Below are positions 58,666-63,833 of a DNA stretch of 64,000 nucleotides, piece after piece. Under the pieces are notes generated by a model. That model was given only the letters and a program-made list of their open reading frames with translations. It was not told where the DNA came from and ran no database searches. Made by a program: the position numbers and the translations under genes. The stretch is from positions 62,001 to 126,000 of the forward strand of contig NZ_CP088081.1 of NCBI RefSeq assembly GCF_021049305.1, in the 5' to 3' direction. How positions within the stretch are numbered: position 1 is the stretch's first letter; every line of letters begins with the position of its first letter. Origin of the DNA: Ideonella dechloratans (GTDB lineage: Bacteria > Pseudomonadota > Gammaproteobacteria > Burkholderiales > Burkholderiaceae_C).

Positions 58666-58935
58666 TCAGGCCTGGCGCAAGGAGCGCCACACCTCGTCCT
58701 GCCAGGGCAGCTGGTGGATCAGGCCGTTCAGGTGCAGGGCGGCTTCGTTGCTGGTCATCACCGCCCCTTCGTCGCTGACCAGACGCAGGTTGGTCAGCAC
58801 GCCCATCGGGTCGGCCATGGCGACCACGCCTTCGTTGATCTCCACCCAGTCCCACAGCAGCCCGGCCTCGGGTTGGGGCGAGGATTCGCACCACAAGGTC
58901 TGGCCGCACAGCGGATCGCGTGGACTTCCGCGCAT
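58666..58935 (-). CDS. Unrecognised small protein next to the LuxR solo
   Basis: An 89-residue open frame reading MRGSPRDPLCGQTLWCESSP and LLWDWVEINEGVVAMADPMG, then LTNLRLVSDEGAVMTSNEAA. No signal peptide, membrane segment or known family. It is divergent from the luxR gene with a 10-bp palindrome between, which hints that it may be regulated with it. The open frame extends to 59079, and the start at 58935 is chosen only by composition; it may also be a chance frame. Confidence 0.45.
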   Translation of the reverse strand: MRGSPRDPLCGQTLWCESSPQPEAGLLWDWVEINEGVVAMADPMGVLTNLRLVSDEGAVMTSNEAALHLNGLIHQLPWQDEVWRSLRQA

Positions 58936-58967
58936 CACACGCGTGCCGACGTGCACAAAGCGACAAG

Positions 58968-59008
58968 TTTGTGGCCGGTTTGCCTGCCAAAATACCGTCG
59001 GCCACAAA
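58968..59008. promoter_or_regulatory. Palindrome upstream of the LuxR solo
   Basis: Perfect 10-bp arms TTTGTGGCCG and CGGCCACAAA with a 21-bp spacer, in the gene-free region between the small unknown gene and luxR. Possible operator; no T-run, so not a terminator. Confidence 0.4.
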
Positions 59009-59176
59009 TACAAGGACCAGGGGGGTGGCATGGCGCCGCGCGAGCGCGAGGGTGCATGAGCATTCGGTAGCGAGAGCATGGCGATAGTCTGGAATGGACG
59101 ACGTGCGTGAGCTAGATGTAAGACCTGTCAGGGATGCCTGGGGGAACCCGGCCTGTGCGGTGCGGGAGGCAGCGCT

Positions 59177-59905
59177 GTGACCGCCGGCATGCTGCATGGC
59201 AGCTTCTTGTCGGTCATGCAGGCCCAGACTGAAGCGGATTTCCGCCAGGAGGTCATCCGCTTTGCGCAGGATCTGGGCTTCGCCTATGTGTCGGCGATGA
59301 CGGTCATCGATCAGTCGCTGACCCATTCCGATTTCTTCACGGTGGACAACACGCCGCAGGCTTACAAGGACGGCTTTCAGAACAACCAGATTTGGCGCCG
59401 CGATCCTGTGATGCAGCACTGCAAGCGGGGTACTGTGCCCATCCTGTGGGACCAGGCCACCTATGTCCGCAACGGGGTCGAAGAGCTCTGGGAAGAGCAG
59501 GCGGCCTTCGGTTATCGCACCGGGATTGCGTTGGCCATGCATCTCCCGCAGGGCCGCCATTTCACCTTCGGCGTGGACCGTGACCAAGCCTTGCCCAAGG
59601 AGCCGGCTGCCCTGACCCGGATCGTGGCCGACATCCAGCTGTTTGCCGTGCACGCCCAGGAAGCGGCCTTGCGGCTCTTCGTGGCGCCCAACGCGGTGGC
59701 GCTGGAGCGACCCAAGCTGACGCCCCGCGAACTGGAGGCCCTGCGCTGGACCATGGAGGGCAAGACGGCCTGGGAAGTGGGCACCATCCTGGGCATCAGC
59801 GAGCGCACCGCGGTGCTGCATTTGCAGAATGCGATGCACAAGCTCGAGGCCACCAACAAGCACCAGGCGGTGCTCAAGGCGCTGCGCCTGGGCCTGATCC
59901 ACTGA
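59177..59905 (+). CDS. LuxR-type quorum-sensing regulator, solo
   Basis: A 242-residue LuxR protein with an N-terminal autoinducer-binding domain and C-terminal GerE helix-turn-helix (LTPRELEALRWTMEGKTAWE, GISERTAVLHLQNAMHKLEA). Of the six TraR-type pocket residues, D76, P77, W91 and G116 are kept, but the positions equal to W57 and Y61 of TraR are Y63 and F67. No luxI is nearby. Start is GTG at 59177; ATG at 59189 is an alternative. It sits just upstream of the GG-peptide/exporter genes and is their likely regulator (inferred). Confidence 0.88.
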   Translation: MTAGMLHGSFLSVMQAQTEADFRQEVIRFAQDLGFAYVSAMTVIDQSLTHSDFFTVDNTPQAYKDGFQNNQIWRRDPVMQHCKRGTVPILWDQATYVRNGVEELWEEQAAFGYRTGIALAMHLPQGRHFTFGVDRDQALPKEPAALTRIVADIQLFAVHAQEAALRLFVAPNAVALERPKLTPRELEALRWTMEGKTAWEVGTILGISERTAVLHLQNAMHKLEATNKHQAVLKALRLGLIH

Positions 59906-59943
59906 GCAGGGGATGTGTTGCGGAGGGTGACGCCCTGTAAGAG

Positions 59944-59959
59944 TTGACAGTGTCGTCAA
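59944..59959. promoter_or_regulatory. TTGAC-N6-GTCAA dyad before the peptide gene
   Basis: TTGACAGTGTCGTCAA, 65 bp before the peptide start. It overlaps a TTGACA -35-like hexamer (59944-59949), but no good -10 lies 17 bp downstream. Possible LuxR site. Confidence 0.35.
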
Positions 59960-60023
59960 AAGCGGGGACTTGGTTCAATGACTCCATGCGCTCGATGCGC
60001 ACCGATCAACGGAGTCAACCACC

Positions 60024-60188
60024 ATGAAGCAAGTCCTGAAGTCCATCGTTTCCAACACCCTGGGCGCGCTGCGTGCCAAGACTGCACCGGTGCAGCCGCT
60101 CCAGCAGATGTCCGACACCGAGCTGCGGGCTGTGGTGGGCGGCACCAGCGCTGACGCCGTTGATGCCCTGCCGCGCGGCGGCTGGTAA
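60024..60188 (+). CDS. Double-glycine leader peptide (secreted peptide precursor)
   Basis: A 54-residue peptide, too short for many gene callers. A 40-residue leader ends in LQQMSDTELRAVVGG, the standard leader cut by C39 peptidase ABC exporters after GG, leaving the core TSADAVDALPRGGW (14 residues, no cysteine, C-terminal Trp). GGAG eight bases before the ATG at 60024 supports translation. A strong terminator follows, then hlyD-type and C39 exporter genes on the same strand. Such a short core may be a signal peptide or a bacteriocin; no immunity gene or maturase is apparent. Confidence 0.8.
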   Translation: MKQVLKSIVSNTLGALRAKTAPVQPLQQMSDTELRAVVGGTSADAVDALPRGGW

Positions 60189-60297
60189 GACAAGAAGCAA
60201 AGACGCTGTCATCGTGAATCGGCCTGGGGAGGGCGATTCTCACTTCAAGCACTCTCAGGGAAGACAAGTCCAGAACTAGGACGTGTTGGGATCTCTC

Positions 60298-60335
60298 GAC
60301 GGCGGCCACGGGAAACCGGGCCGCCGTCTCTTTTT
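60298..60335 (+). terminator. Terminator between peptide and exporter genes
   Basis: GACGGCGGCC pairs with GGCCGCCGTC, followed by CTTTTT. It should favour high peptide levels over exporter levels. The rest of 60189-60412 holds no gene. Confidence 0.85.
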
Positions 60336-60412
60336 GGGCGGCTGCCGACGCCCTATCATCTGCCCGCCATGCCGCACACACCATCCCCCCGCCGAAGTCC
60401 TGAGGAGGCTGG

Positions 60413-61675
60413 GTGAGCCTGTTCCGACCCGAGGCCTTGCGTCACCGACAGGGGGAATGGCTGGGCACGCTGCAGCTGTCGCAGCCCCTGCCACTGGCGT
60501 GGATCACCGCCGGCGTGGTGGCCAGTGTGCTGGCCTTGGGCCTGTTCCTGGCCTGGGGGCAGGGCAGCCGCCGCGTGCAGGTCAGCGGTGTGTTGATTCC
60601 TGCCGGCGGGTTGGTGCGCATCGTGCCGCCCCAGGTGGCGCGGGTGCAGCGTCTGGCGGTGCAGGAAGGCCAGCCGGTGCGGGCCGGGCAGCTGCTGATG
60701 ACCCTGGCCGTGGGCGATCCCCGCCTGGCCGGAGCGCCGCAGGGGCAGCTGCAGCAGACCTTCGACGCCCGGCTGCAGAGCCTGGCCGACACCGAGCAGC
60801 AGACCCGCCGGGTGGCCGAGGCCCAGCAGCAGTCGCTGGCGCAGCGCATCGAAGCCCTGCAGCGCGAGTTGCAGCAGCTGGCGCAGCAGGTCCAGTTCCA
60901 CCAGCAGCGCCTGACCCTGGCCGAACAGGCCCAGGCCCGGCTGGAATCCTTGGCGGGCCAGCAGTTCGTTTCCACCGCCCAGGTGCAGGCCAAGCAGGAA
61001 GAGGTGATGGGCCTGCGCGCCGACGGCGCCGCCTTGCTGCGGCAGCGGGCCTCGCTGGCGCGTGACCTGGCCGATCTGCAGGCCCAGGCGCGCGAGCTGC
61101 CGGCGCAGACGGCCCAGCAGCTGCAGGCCCTGGCCCGGCAGCGCGACGAGATCCGCGAGACCGCCACCCGCGCTGACCCGGCGGCGGCCGACCGGGTGCT
61201 GCCGGTCACCGCGCCGATGGCCGGCACCGTCACCGCCATCTACGCCGGCGCAGGCCAGGCGGTCAGCGACGAGTTCGCCATGGCCAGCCTGTGGCCGGCC
61301 GGGGCGCCGCTGCAGGCGCATCTGTACGCGCCGTCCAGCGCCTTGGGCTTTGTGCGGCCGGGGCAGCCGGTGCGCCTGCGGCTGCAGGCCTTTCCGTACC
61401 AGAAGTACGGTTGGCTGGACGGCACGGTCCGCCAGGTGGCCCAGGCCCCGGCCCAGGCCACCGAGCTGGCCAGGCTGCCGCTGGCCTCCCAGACGGGCGC
61501 GCCGCAGCCGCTCTACCGCATCGTGGTCACGCTGTCGGCCCAGGCCATGCGCGCGGGCGGCCTGGCCCAGCCCCTGCAGCCGGGCATGCAGTTGGACGCC
61601 GACATCCAATTGGAGCGCCGCCGTTTGATCGAATGGGTGCTGGAGCCCCTGCTGGGCTGGCGCCAGCGCTGGTGA
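60413..61675 (+). CDS. HlyD-family secretion adaptor
   Basis: A 420-residue membrane fusion protein. One TM helix (about 28-48, WITAGVVASVLALGLFLAWG) precedes a lipoyl half (VSGVLIPAGGLVRIVPPQVA), a long coiled-coil hairpin (about 110-240, Gln/Ala-rich) and the second lipoyl and beta-barrel part (VTAPMAGTVTAIYAGAGQAV). It bridges the C39 ABC exporter to an outer-membrane channel. Start GTG at 60413 with AGGAGG six bases upstream. The next gene begins 10 bp after it. Confidence 0.92.
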   Translation: MSLFRPEALRHRQGEWLGTLQLSQPLPLAWITAGVVASVLALGLFLAWGQGSRRVQVSGVLIPAGGLVRIVPPQVARVQRLAVQEGQPVRAGQLLMTLAVGDPRLAGAPQGQLQQTFDARLQSLADTEQQTRRVAEAQQQSLAQRIEALQRELQQLAQQVQFHQQRLTLAEQAQARLESLAGQQFVSTAQVQAKQEEVMGLRADGAALLRQRASLARDLADLQAQARELPAQTAQQLQALARQRDEIRETATRADPAAADRVLPVTAPMAGTVTAIYAGAGQAVSDEFAMASLWPAGAPLQAHLYAPSSALGFVRPGQPVRLRLQAFPYQKYGWLDGTVRQVAQAPAQATELARLPLASQTGAPQPLYRIVVTLSAQAMRAGGLAQPLQPGMQLDADIQLERRRLIEWVLEPLLGWRQRW

Positions 61676-61685
61676 GCACGCACGC

Positions 61686-63833
61686 ATGACCGAACCGACC
61701 CCTGACGCCGGAACCGAGGCCTTGCGCGGCCTGCGCACGAGCTGGGGCCGCCGCCGCGTGCCGTTGGTGTTGCAGACCGAGGCCGCCGAATGCGGCCTGG
61801 CCTGCCTGGCCATGGTGGCCGGTGCCCATGGGCTGGACACCGATCTGCCGGCCCTGCGCAGCCGCTTCCAGATCTCGATGAAGGGGGCCACGGCAGCCGA
61901 TGTCTGCGAGATGGGCGCGGCCCTGGGCCTGGCGCCGCGCGCCCTGCGGGCCGAGCCGGCGCAGCTGGCCCAGCTGAGCCTGCCGGCGGTGCTGCACTGG
62001 GACCTGAACCATTTCGTGGTGCTGGCCGGGCTGAAGCGCGGCGTGGCCACGGTGCACGACCCGGCCCGCGGCGTGCGCCGCATGAGCCTGGCCGAGCTGT
62101 CACCGCATTTCAGCGGCGTGGCGCTGGAGTTCACGCCCACCGCGGCCTTCGTGCCCCGCCGCGAGCGCCAGCCGGTGCGCCTGCGCGAGCTGATGGGCCG
62201 GGTGCTGGGCTGGAAGCGGGCGCTGGGCCAGGTGCTGCTGCTGGCGCTGGCACTGGAGCTGCTGGTGCTGGGCAGCCCCTTCTTTCTGCAGTGGGTGGTG
62301 GACAGCGCCCTGCCCACCGGCGACCGCGACCTGCTGCTGACCCTGGGCGTGGGCTTCGGCGGCCTGGTGCTGTTGCAGTCGGTGGCGGCCGCCGCCCGCT
62401 CCTGGGCGGTGCTGCACCTGTCTTCCACTCTGAAGCTGCAGTGGCTGGGGCAGGTCTTCGCCCACCTGCTGCGCCTGCCGCTGGAATGGTTCGAGCGCCG
62501 CCACACCGGCGATGTGTGGTCGAGATTTGCTGCGGTGCAGCAAATCCAGGATGCACTGTCGATGCAGTTCTCCGAGGCGGTGATCGACGGTCTGATGGTG
62601 CTGCTGACCCTGGTGCTGATGCTGGCCTACAGCCCGACGCTGACCGCCGTGGCGGTGGCCGCGGTGGCGCTGTACGCGGTGCTGCGCTGGGCCCTGTACC
62701 GGCCGATGAAGGAGGCCTCCGAGGAGGCCCTGGTGCACGAGGCCCGCAAGAGCAGCCACTTCCTCGAGTCGCTGCGCGGGGTGGGCGCGATCAAGCTGTT
62801 CAATGCCCAGGGGCGGCGCCAGTCGCGCTTTTTGAACCTGGTGGTGGACGCGATGAACGCCAGCCTGGTGGCCCGCCGGCACGAGCTGGTGCTGTCGGTG
62901 GGCCAGCGGCTGATCTTCGGCCTGGAGCGGGTGGCGGTGGTCTGGCTGGGCGGGCTGGCGGTGATGGACCAGCAGATCAGCACCGGCATGTTGTTCGCCT
63001 TCCTGGCCTACCAGGAGCAGTTCGCCACCCGTTTCGGCGCCTTGATCGACAAGGCCGGCGAGCTGCAGCTGCTGCGTTTGCAGGGCGAGCGCCTGGCCGA
63101 CATCGTGCGCACGCCGCCCGAGGAGGACGCCGGCGCGCCCCTGCCTGCGGGCACCGAGCTGACGGGCCGGCTGACGGTGCGGGGCCTGCACTTCCGCTAC
63201 GCGGATGTGGAGGCCGAGGTGCTGCAGGACATCAGCTTCAGCGTGGCGCCGGGCGAGTCGGTGGCCATCACCGGGCCCTCGGGCGGTGGCAAGACCACGC
63301 TGCTCAAGCTGCTGCTGGGCATTTACGCCCCGCAAGGCGGCGAGGTCTGCATCGACGGGCTGCCGCTGGCCCGCCTGGGCCGGGCCCGCTGGCGCAGCCT
63401 GATCGGCACGGTGATGCAGGACGAGCCGCTGTTCGCCGGCTCCATCGCAGACAACATCGCCTTCTTCGCGCCCGACCCGGACCGCGACTGGATCGAGGCC
63501 TGCGCCCGGCAGGCCGCGGTGCACGAGGAGATCCTGGCCATGCCCATGGGCTATGCCACCCTGGTGGGCGACATGGGCACCAGCCTGTCGGGCGGGCAGA
63601 AGCAGCGCATTCTGCTGGCCCGGGCGCTGTACAAGCGCCCGCGCATCCTGCTGCTGGACGAGGCCACCAGCGCGCTGGACGTGGACCGCGAGCGCCTGGT
63701 GAACCAGGCGGTGCAGCAGCTGCAGCTGACCCGCATCATCGTGGCCCACCGGCCCGAGACCATCGCCAGCGCCCAGCGGGTGCTGGTGCTGAAGGATGGC
63801 CGCTTGATCGAGGACCGGCCGGTCGGCGGCTGA
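61686..63833 (+). CDS. C39-peptidase-containing ABC exporter (PCAT)
   Basis: A 715-residue exporter that cleaves GG leaders and exports the peptide. N-terminal C39 domain: oxyanion Q30 and catalytic C36 in LQTEAAECGLACLAMVAGAH, with H109 (WDLNHFVVLAG) and D125 (VHDPARG). Six TM helices (about 175-430) follow, then the ATPase: Walker A GPSGGGKTTLLK, signature LSGGQKQRILLARAL, Walker B ILLLDEATSALD and switch AHRPET. All catalytic parts are intact, so both maturation and export should work. The GG-peptide at 60024 is the evident substrate. Confidence 0.95.
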   Translation: MTEPTPDAGTEALRGLRTSWGRRRVPLVLQTEAAECGLACLAMVAGAHGLDTDLPALRSRFQISMKGATAADVCEMGAALGLAPRALRAEPAQLAQLSLPAVLHWDLNHFVVLAGLKRGVATVHDPARGVRRMSLAELSPHFSGVALEFTPTAAFVPRRERQPVRLRELMGRVLGWKRALGQVLLLALALELLVLGSPFFLQWVVDSALPTGDRDLLLTLGVGFGGLVLLQSVAAAARSWAVLHLSSTLKLQWLGQVFAHLLRLPLEWFERRHTGDVWSRFAAVQQIQDALSMQFSEAVIDGLMVLLTLVLMLAYSPTLTAVAVAAVALYAVLRWALYRPMKEASEEALVHEARKSSHFLESLRGVGAIKLFNAQGRRQSRFLNLVVDAMNASLVARRHELVLSVGQRLIFGLERVAVVWLGGLAVMDQQISTGMLFAFLAYQEQFATRFGALIDKAGELQLLRLQGERLADIVRTPPEEDAGAPLPAGTELTGRLTVRGLHFRYADVEAEVLQDISFSVAPGESVAITGPSGGGKTTLLKLLLGIYAPQGGEVCIDGLPLARLGRARWRSLIGTVMQDEPLFAGSIADNIAFFAPDPDRDWIEACARQAAVHEEILAMPMGYATLVGDMGTSLSGGQKQRILLARALYKRPRILLLDEATSALDVDRERLVNQAVQQLQLTRIIVAHRPETIASAQRVLVLKDGRLIEDRPVGG

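Follow-up and report, generated by a model that had tools for sequence, protein, structure and literature searches.

What does a LuxR-family protein sense when a small gene for a double-glycine peptide, and not a LuxI synthase gene, stands at its side? The question is raised by a locus of Ideonella dechloratans within a window of 64,000 nucleotides (the whole stretch of DNA analysed; contig NZ_CP088081.1, positions 62,001 to 126,000), where a luxR gene is followed by an open reading frame (ORF) for a 54-residue precursor, an HlyD-type adaptor gene and a gene for an ATP-binding cassette (ABC) exporter with a C39 peptidase domain (Table 1). All four genes had been recognized by a first-pass annotation and were confirmed where it had placed them, and C36, H109 and D125 of the exporter, checked by index together with Q30, are all in place. 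Textbooks present LuxR proteins as the receptors of acyl-homoserine lactones (AHLs) and assign peptide pheromones that have a cytoplasmic receptor to Gram-positive bacteria. We consider it probable that the locus represents a self-contained quorum-sensing circuit, in which a receptor of the LuxR family would sense a linear peptide pheromone encoded by its own neighbor.

The same cassette is found again in Ideonella, Rubrivivax, Roseateles, Methylibium and their relatives. The order LuxR, small ORF with Gly-Gly (GG) leader, HlyD/C39 was found in 14 of 27 relative loci examined, although the peptides of L048 and L050 escaped the pattern used and were recovered in a later look. The first-pass annotation had made its case depend on the peptide frame being conserved beside homologous exporters, and conserved it is. 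Pooling gave 211 loci with 228 LuxR instances, of which 190 were non-identical and 184 had 400 bp of downstream sequence; 134 loci, with a score of at least 355 bits or a dyad, form the core set.

Cleavage after Gly-Gly would be expected to release the 14-residue product of the first-pass annotation, but the eight residues of that product that precede LPRGGW are not conserved. The conserved unit is the C-terminal hexapeptide xPxxxW (LPRGGW in the window), present in up to five copies per precursor; this restriction of core conservation to the last six residues was not part of the first-pass annotation, nor were the conserved divergent gene (58666-59079, minus strand) and the two dyads described below. 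Core length and spacer vary between loci, and xPxxxW is present in most. An ORF with a terminal P-x(3,4)-W follows luxR in 109 of the 134 core loci, compared with a mean of 1.0 in dinucleotide shuffles and none on the reverse strand. When xP...W was allowed anywhere in the ORF, 125 core loci qualified, compared with 22 for shuffles and 29 for the reverse strand, which makes the terminal motif the telling form.

Multi-copy precursors allowed copies of the hexapeptide to be compared within one gene. Among 132 precursors scored, ten had no copy, 74 one, 42 two, two three, three four (including L121, with LPRGTW) and one five (L112, with GPNGGW); the score by which a precursor was chosen at each locus favored the motif and was visibly wrong for L122 and L210, and L144 was set by hand. 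The 48 multi-copy precursors yielded 76 copy pairs, of which 69 were identical in amino acids and 12 in DNA. Adjacent pairs that differed in DNA kept the hexapeptide in 46 of 52 cases, compared with 4.75 expected from random substitution, and the nucleotide differences between adjacent copies fell 107 times in synonymous codons and 15 times in others. Because the hexapeptide is kept while the DNA diverges, selection acts on the exact hexapeptide. The frame is short, and most records of its relatives are unnamed or hypothetical, as might be expected were it incidental and not a real gene; given the terminal motif and the synonymous differences between copies, we attach almost no credence to that explanation.

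In close relatives (P0002-P0012) the leader is mostly retained (8 of 10 fetched) and the hexapeptide varies, with LPKGGW, LPKGTW, SPRGGW, SPKGGW, SPRGNW and SPKGTW occurring beside the LPRGGW of the window. In P0011 the leader end is scrambled and the SPRGGW end intact, as if by two compensating frameshifts. A protein search with the L112 peptide gave no match, the query coordinates being apparently out of register.

The peptide follows the LuxR gene and not the exporter. An adaptor gene lies within 900 bp of luxR in 107 of the 134 core loci, accompanied by the ABC gene in 100 of these 107. The terminal motif is still there in 21 of the 27 core loci without an adjacent adaptor, and 11 of the 27 have a leaderless peptide (for example, MQATHQTQTTTLLPRNGW); counted among the 27 are L075 and L105, which are contig ends, and L122, at which the ABC gene is present. 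Among 12 related C39 loci without such a LuxR, a comparison that excludes L037 (a fragment of a LuxR locus), 11 had other GG peptides, none of them ending in Trp, and one had no peptide. Because related C39 loci without the LuxR bear different peptides, we rejected the idea that conservation of the peptide is driven by the exporter. By parsimony on the LuxR tree (quick LG+G4 trees, with long-branch warnings), leader-bearing and leaderless forms switched at least three times. As separate observations, same-subfamily C39 exporters without such a LuxR at L032, L056 and L057 stand beside long Gly/Trp/Cys/His-rich GG peptides, and at L247, L250 and L262 distant LuxR paralogues are followed by GG-leader ORFs with Trp-ending cores, with no adaptor found nearby.

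A more distant LuxR group also has small ORFs beside luxR. At 23 of its 29 loci, 89 to 205 bp past luxR, lies an ORF that encodes 16-28 residues and contains a P[RKYT]xG motif, chosen by eye among ORFs with a stretch resembling a ribosome-binding site; a dyad of different sequence (CTACAAGG..TTTGTAG-like) occupies the equivalent place at many of these loci. Fifty LuxR paralogues without a dyad were dropped as a negative control, as a terminal P-x(3,4)-W ORF was found in 8 of the 50, and leaderless peptides and another dyad occur there.

The protein at the center of the locus carries Autoind_bind and GerE domains, has the LuxR fold and is the only Autoind_bind protein in the genome. A search with PF00765, which does detect LuxI synthases (3 of 36 genomes above cut-off), found no match in the genome of the window or in 15 genomes of the same genus. 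In the accessible text of a survey of LuxR solos, six conserved ligand-domain residues are given, W57, Y61, D70, P71, W85 and G113 of TraR (PMC4338825). The set is incomplete in our LuxR rows when aligned by LasR. At the positions of LasR D73, P74 and W88 the residue is conserved in 128, 130 and 130 of 130 rows, respectively, whereas Trp occupies the TraR W57 position in 7 of 130 and Tyr the TraR Y61 position in 27 of 130; the LasR W60/Y64 positions are variable, mostly Tyr or Phe, and are Tyr63 and Phe67 in the window. A Gly at G112/G116 is invariant in 68 rows and probably corresponds to TraR G113. The incomplete set lowers the likelihood of an AHL receptor, not the assignment to the LuxR family. 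The W57M/Y61W changes of OryR and PipR, and their proline iminopeptidase or importer neighbors, were not found at the window locus. The same survey, in its accessible text, lists a W57Y/Y61F group in other bacteria, and the present gene context is not among what it describes there (PMC4338825).

A ligand that sits in the LuxR pocket would leave covariation between pocket and peptide. We aligned 130 LuxR rows with LasR and calculated the mutual information of peptide positions with LuxR columns over 126 loci; the LasR pocket list came from a docking table for N-(3-oxododecanoyl)-homoserine lactone (OdDHL) in 2UV0, in the available part of PMC11231148, and thus represents docked rather than crystal contacts. 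Pocket columns were enriched for peptide position 3 (area under the curve [AUC] 0.80, p = 4.5e-5) and position 4 (AUC 0.79, p = 7.9e-5), and also for position 6 (p = 5.4e-3). The enrichment for positions 3 and 4 survived thinning to 90 and to 50 rows (p ≤ 0.014), and that for position 6 survived at 90 only.

Position 5 hangs on a single column, LuxR-73, which is aligned with LasR Ala70. Where LuxR-73 is Gly, position 5 is a residue other than Gly, mostly Thr (42 of 43); where it is Trp, Met or Tyr, position 5 is Gly (44 of 44). Of 14 independent pairs on the tree, 12.5 agreed and none opposed (p = 2.4e-4, uncorrected), and column 73 topped all 317 splits tested, with 11.3 compared with 4.6 for the runner-up. 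Because that p value is uncorrected and belongs to one of 317 splits, a split sample was run: columns 73, 118, 104, 67 and 63, from the best four of one half, ranked 1, 2, 3, 5 and 6 of 173 in the other, the two halves sharing clades; T130 ranked 14, and Q108 was unrankable. For LuxR-63 Phe with Lys at peptide position 3, 8.7 of 11 pairs agreed (median p = 0.004, range 0.002-0.07), while columns 104, 118 and 67 pointed in the same direction with too few pairs. In the distant group, Phe at column 53 went with Trp in the peptide (7 of 10 versus 1 of 12, p = 0.006, uncorrected for ancestry). Taken at the level of sequence, the protein looks like the receptor of the peptide; the first-pass annotation had made it a nearby controller, and its proposal of signalling under LuxR control is well supported, although the protein seems to be more than that.

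Several results count against a pheromone read by this pocket. Enrichment was not significant for peptide positions 1 (p = 0.06) and 5 (p = 0.37), two of 16 leader positions used as a control reached p < 0.02, and L119, A188, Y37, V43, F54 and F168 led in one half-sample and failed in the other. An xP...W ORF is lacking at nine of the 134 core loci, some peptides have lost the final Trp (LPRVS, LPRVG), and 23 of 180 LuxR tree rows, many in tandem arrays, have no assigned peptide. Because the hexapeptide is not always at the very end (LPRGGWTKE), further trimming is needed, which no gene of the cassette explains.

The covariation also bears on an alternative in which LuxR senses an AHL or plant compound from outside and the peptide is a secreted output only, such as a short bacteriocin-like product. 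LuxR solos of such a kind are known (accessible text of PMC4338825), the retained D73, P74 and W88 positions are AHL contacts in LasR, and the UniRef entry of one relative is named "Bacteriocin." Such an output would leave the link between pocket and peptide unaccounted for, and it sits poorly with the variable W60/Y64 positions, with leaderless peptides where there is no exporter, and with a cassette in which no immunity-type gene was seen; we regard this alternative as unlikely. A purely bacteriocin reading was rejected on the covariation, the exporter-less leaderless peptides and the same missing immunity-type gene. The "antagonistic" role offered by the first-pass annotation likewise found no support: to the lack of an immunity-type gene in the cassette are added the occasional absence of the exporter and the resemblance of exact hexapeptide repeats to pheromone precursors.

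In the interval from luxR to the peptide gene, 13 of 14 relatives have CTGTAAGAGTTGACAG or a close variant of it, and such a dyad is present at 121 of the 134 core loci. Across 36 genomes the dyad pattern gave 23 sites compared with one for the reversed control. A full CTG-N10-CAG dyad is found at -25 to -66 before luxR in 10 of 13 relatives, those lacking it being G008, G005 and G013. The AAT within TTCAAT is aligned in 14 of 14 relatives; were TTCAAT the -10 element, the dyad would lie near -43, as at LuxR-activated promoters. A genome-wide search allowing two mismatches gave 22 sites compared with 15 in the control, both strands being counted, and because this difference is weak we claim no regulon from that search alone. 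Two one-mismatch sites lie outside the locus. A dyad matching at 14-16 of 16 positions is found 142-149 bp upstream of the gene for a secreted M4 (thermolysin-type) metalloprotease outside the window (G000:C1:210366-211730; L169, L310) in the four closest species, with 0 of 200 shuffles matching in each; it was absent from the other 21 of 25 M4 genes tested (27 were found, and two left out). The metalloprotease is a candidate quorum-controlled exoprotease.

In the circuit that we propose, the C39 exporter and its adaptor would cleave the precursor behind Gly-Gly and carry the peptide out of the cell, and the active part would be the C-terminal LPRGGW, trimmed free. At high density the peptide would return to the cytoplasm, probably via an oligopeptide permease; four SBP_bac_5 proteins in the genome offer a possible means of import. 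The hexapeptide would then occupy the LuxR pocket equivalent to the AHL site of LasR, and loaded LuxR, acting at dyads 59116-59131 and 59935-59950, would increase expression of luxR and of the peptide-exporter operon and probably also of the M4 protease. We infer binding, the sign of regulation, re-import, trimming and density dependence from gene arrangement and comparison. Were the peptide instead a ligand within the producing cell, a feedback activator or inhibitor that export removes, leaderless forms without a nearby exporter would be readily understood, as would a motif already at the C-terminus of the precursor itself. Yet the adjacent adaptor is kept in 107 of 134 core loci, C39 exporters both cut and export, and a nearly constant leader followed by a hexapeptide with pherotype-like variation better suits cell-to-cell signalling, so that we hold an intracellular role to be quite unlikely.

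A homologue of the divergent gene at 58666-59079 precedes luxR, again in divergent orientation, at 128 of 131 core loci and at 37 of 54 other LuxR loci, counting loci with at least 500 bp upstream and homologues within 1500 bp, a radius that allows genes of one tandem array to share a homologue. Pfam DUF4902 matched 38 of 51 members at E ≤ 0.01, the window protein scoring 20.1 bits compared with a curated cut-off of 25, and there was a weak profile match (E = 0.0078) to PDB 4o2h, BCAM1869, which we take to be RsaM. RsaM is a quorum-sensing modulator encoded beside cepI/cepR. This RsaM-like neighbor suggests that the locus may descend from a luxI-rsaM-luxR locus in which the synthase gene was replaced by the peptide gene.

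The system shares with LuxI/LuxR AHL systems (LasR, QscR, TraR) the LuxR fold, the pocket position, lux-box-like dyads, a layout resembling autoregulation and the RsaM-like neighbor, but the genome gave no LuxI hit, a peptide gene occupies the place expected for the synthase, and the TraR W57/Y61 positions are not kept. In the RRNPP systems of Gram-positive bacteria (Rgg/SHP, ComRS), a small peptide is encoded beside a cytoplasmic receptor-regulator. The present locus resembles these in having a peptide gene beside a cytoplasmic receptor, and its leaderless forms resemble SHP and ComS in logic; it differs in its Gram-negative host, in the C39 exporter present in many loci and in having LuxR instead of a TPR protein, a Pfam scan of the LuxR finding no TPR domain. 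A Peptidase_C39 domain with catalytic Cys, His and Asp, a GG leader and an adaptor are shared with C39 double-glycine export (CSP/ComA, class II microcins), whereas here a single or repeated hexapeptide core is tied to LuxR, and the cassette showed neither a histidine kinase gene nor one of immunity type. The NHLP bacteriocin export model TIGR03796 scored 503.8 bits (cut-off 853.3) and bacteriocin_sig (TIGR01847) 13.8 bits (cut-off 15.7).

The nearest case described, as far as the available text of that report goes, is PipR, which answers plant macerates and, at high concentration, Ser-His-Ser, and for which an ABC peptide importer is needed (PMC4981722). PipR/OryR solos are thus also LuxR proteins that answer a peptide-like ligand, but PipR is encoded beside peptidase and importer genes, and no self-encoded peptide is described in that text (PMC4981722). 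In the open-access literature, with preprints and most subscription papers outside the scope, we found no LuxR paired with a self-made peptide, and the novelty of the pairing is provisional. We think it fairly likely that this is a new class of quorum sensing, in which LuxR has a ribosomal linear hexapeptide as its signal, the pheromone gene replaces the LuxI synthase of a luxI-rsaM-luxR-like locus, and pocket and peptide diversify together into pherotypes. It would be a peptide pheromone system with a cytoplasmic receptor in Gram-negative bacteria; counted together with close LuxR paralogues, it would occur in roughly one in four genomes sampled from the family, and its leaderless form, which lacks the exporter, would be the older one.

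If so, a LuxR that reads a self-made peptide would unite two textbook traits and could explain LuxR solos with no assigned ligand, and environmental bacteria may communicate with one another by peptides. Should binding be shown, the class of signal would be new for the LuxR family, the receptor itself being of ordinary LuxR fold. The proposal is highly testable, with a cheap hexapeptide as signal and one protein as receptor: covariation names residue 73 with peptide position 5, and residues 63 and 104 with position 3, as determinants of specificity whose exchange should alter it. Orthogonal peptide-LuxR pairs would also make useful genetic parts for laboratory strains.

In the family sample, the LuxR or a close paralogue was present in 102 of 399 genomes (E ≤ 1e-60). 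When the distant LuxR group was used to search 399 genomes across the order, three matches at E ≤ 1e-55 were obtained, the only one from outside the family (L308) being without such a peptide. Named genomes scanned with the LuxR alignment yielded 196 relatives, and the 80 that were kept include records from Ideonella, Rubrivivax, Roseateles, Mitsuaria, Paucibacter, Methylibium, Rhizobacter, Aquincola and Aquabacterium; the nearest named relatives of the window are Ideonella oryzae, Ideonella sp. B508-1 and I. benzenivorans. The features of the locus are collected in Table 1; luxR could alternatively start at the in-frame ATG at 59189.

Table 1. Features of the luxR-peptide-exporter locus (positions in the window)
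Feature	Position	Strand	Evidence or remark
Divergent small gene, DUF4902/RsaM-like, start codon uncertain	58666-59079	-	Homologues in core loci
Dyad upstream of luxR, ATGTAAGACCTGTCAG	59116-59131	.	One mismatch to dyad pattern
LuxR-family regulator, proposed peptide receptor	59177-59905	+	Pfam Autoind_bind E=3.2e-24, GerE E=5.3e-16
Lux-box-like dyad CTGTAAGAGTTGACAG ahead of peptide gene	59935-59950	.	Kept in relatives
Possible -10 element TTCAAT	59974-59979	+	Aligned AAT in relatives
Peptide ORF, proposed pheromone precursor, 54 aa	60024-60188	+	Leader end LQQMSDTELRAVVGG, core TSADAVDALPRGGW
Codons of conserved hexapeptide LPRGGW	60168-60185	+	xP...W motif across core loci
HlyD-type adaptor	60413-61675	+	Pfam HlyD_3 E=1.2e-13
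C39-peptidase ABC exporter	61686-63833	+	Pfam Peptidase_C39 E=4.6e-31

Some minor observations concern LuxR paralogues and dyads elsewhere. A perfect dyad precedes a second 2-oxoglutarate dehydrogenase E1-like gene in three Ideonella species (L061, L063, L059), no copy of this second gene being seen in the genome of the window. A one-mismatch dyad (G000:C1:2019190-2019205; L170) lies ahead of a D-2-hydroxyacid dehydrogenase gene. In-frame TAG codons occur inside LuxR matches of this family at L115 and in G115:C18 and G219:C66. In tandem arrays of three to five LuxR paralogues (L265, L255, L257, L240, L243), the dyad and the peptide are found at one copy only.

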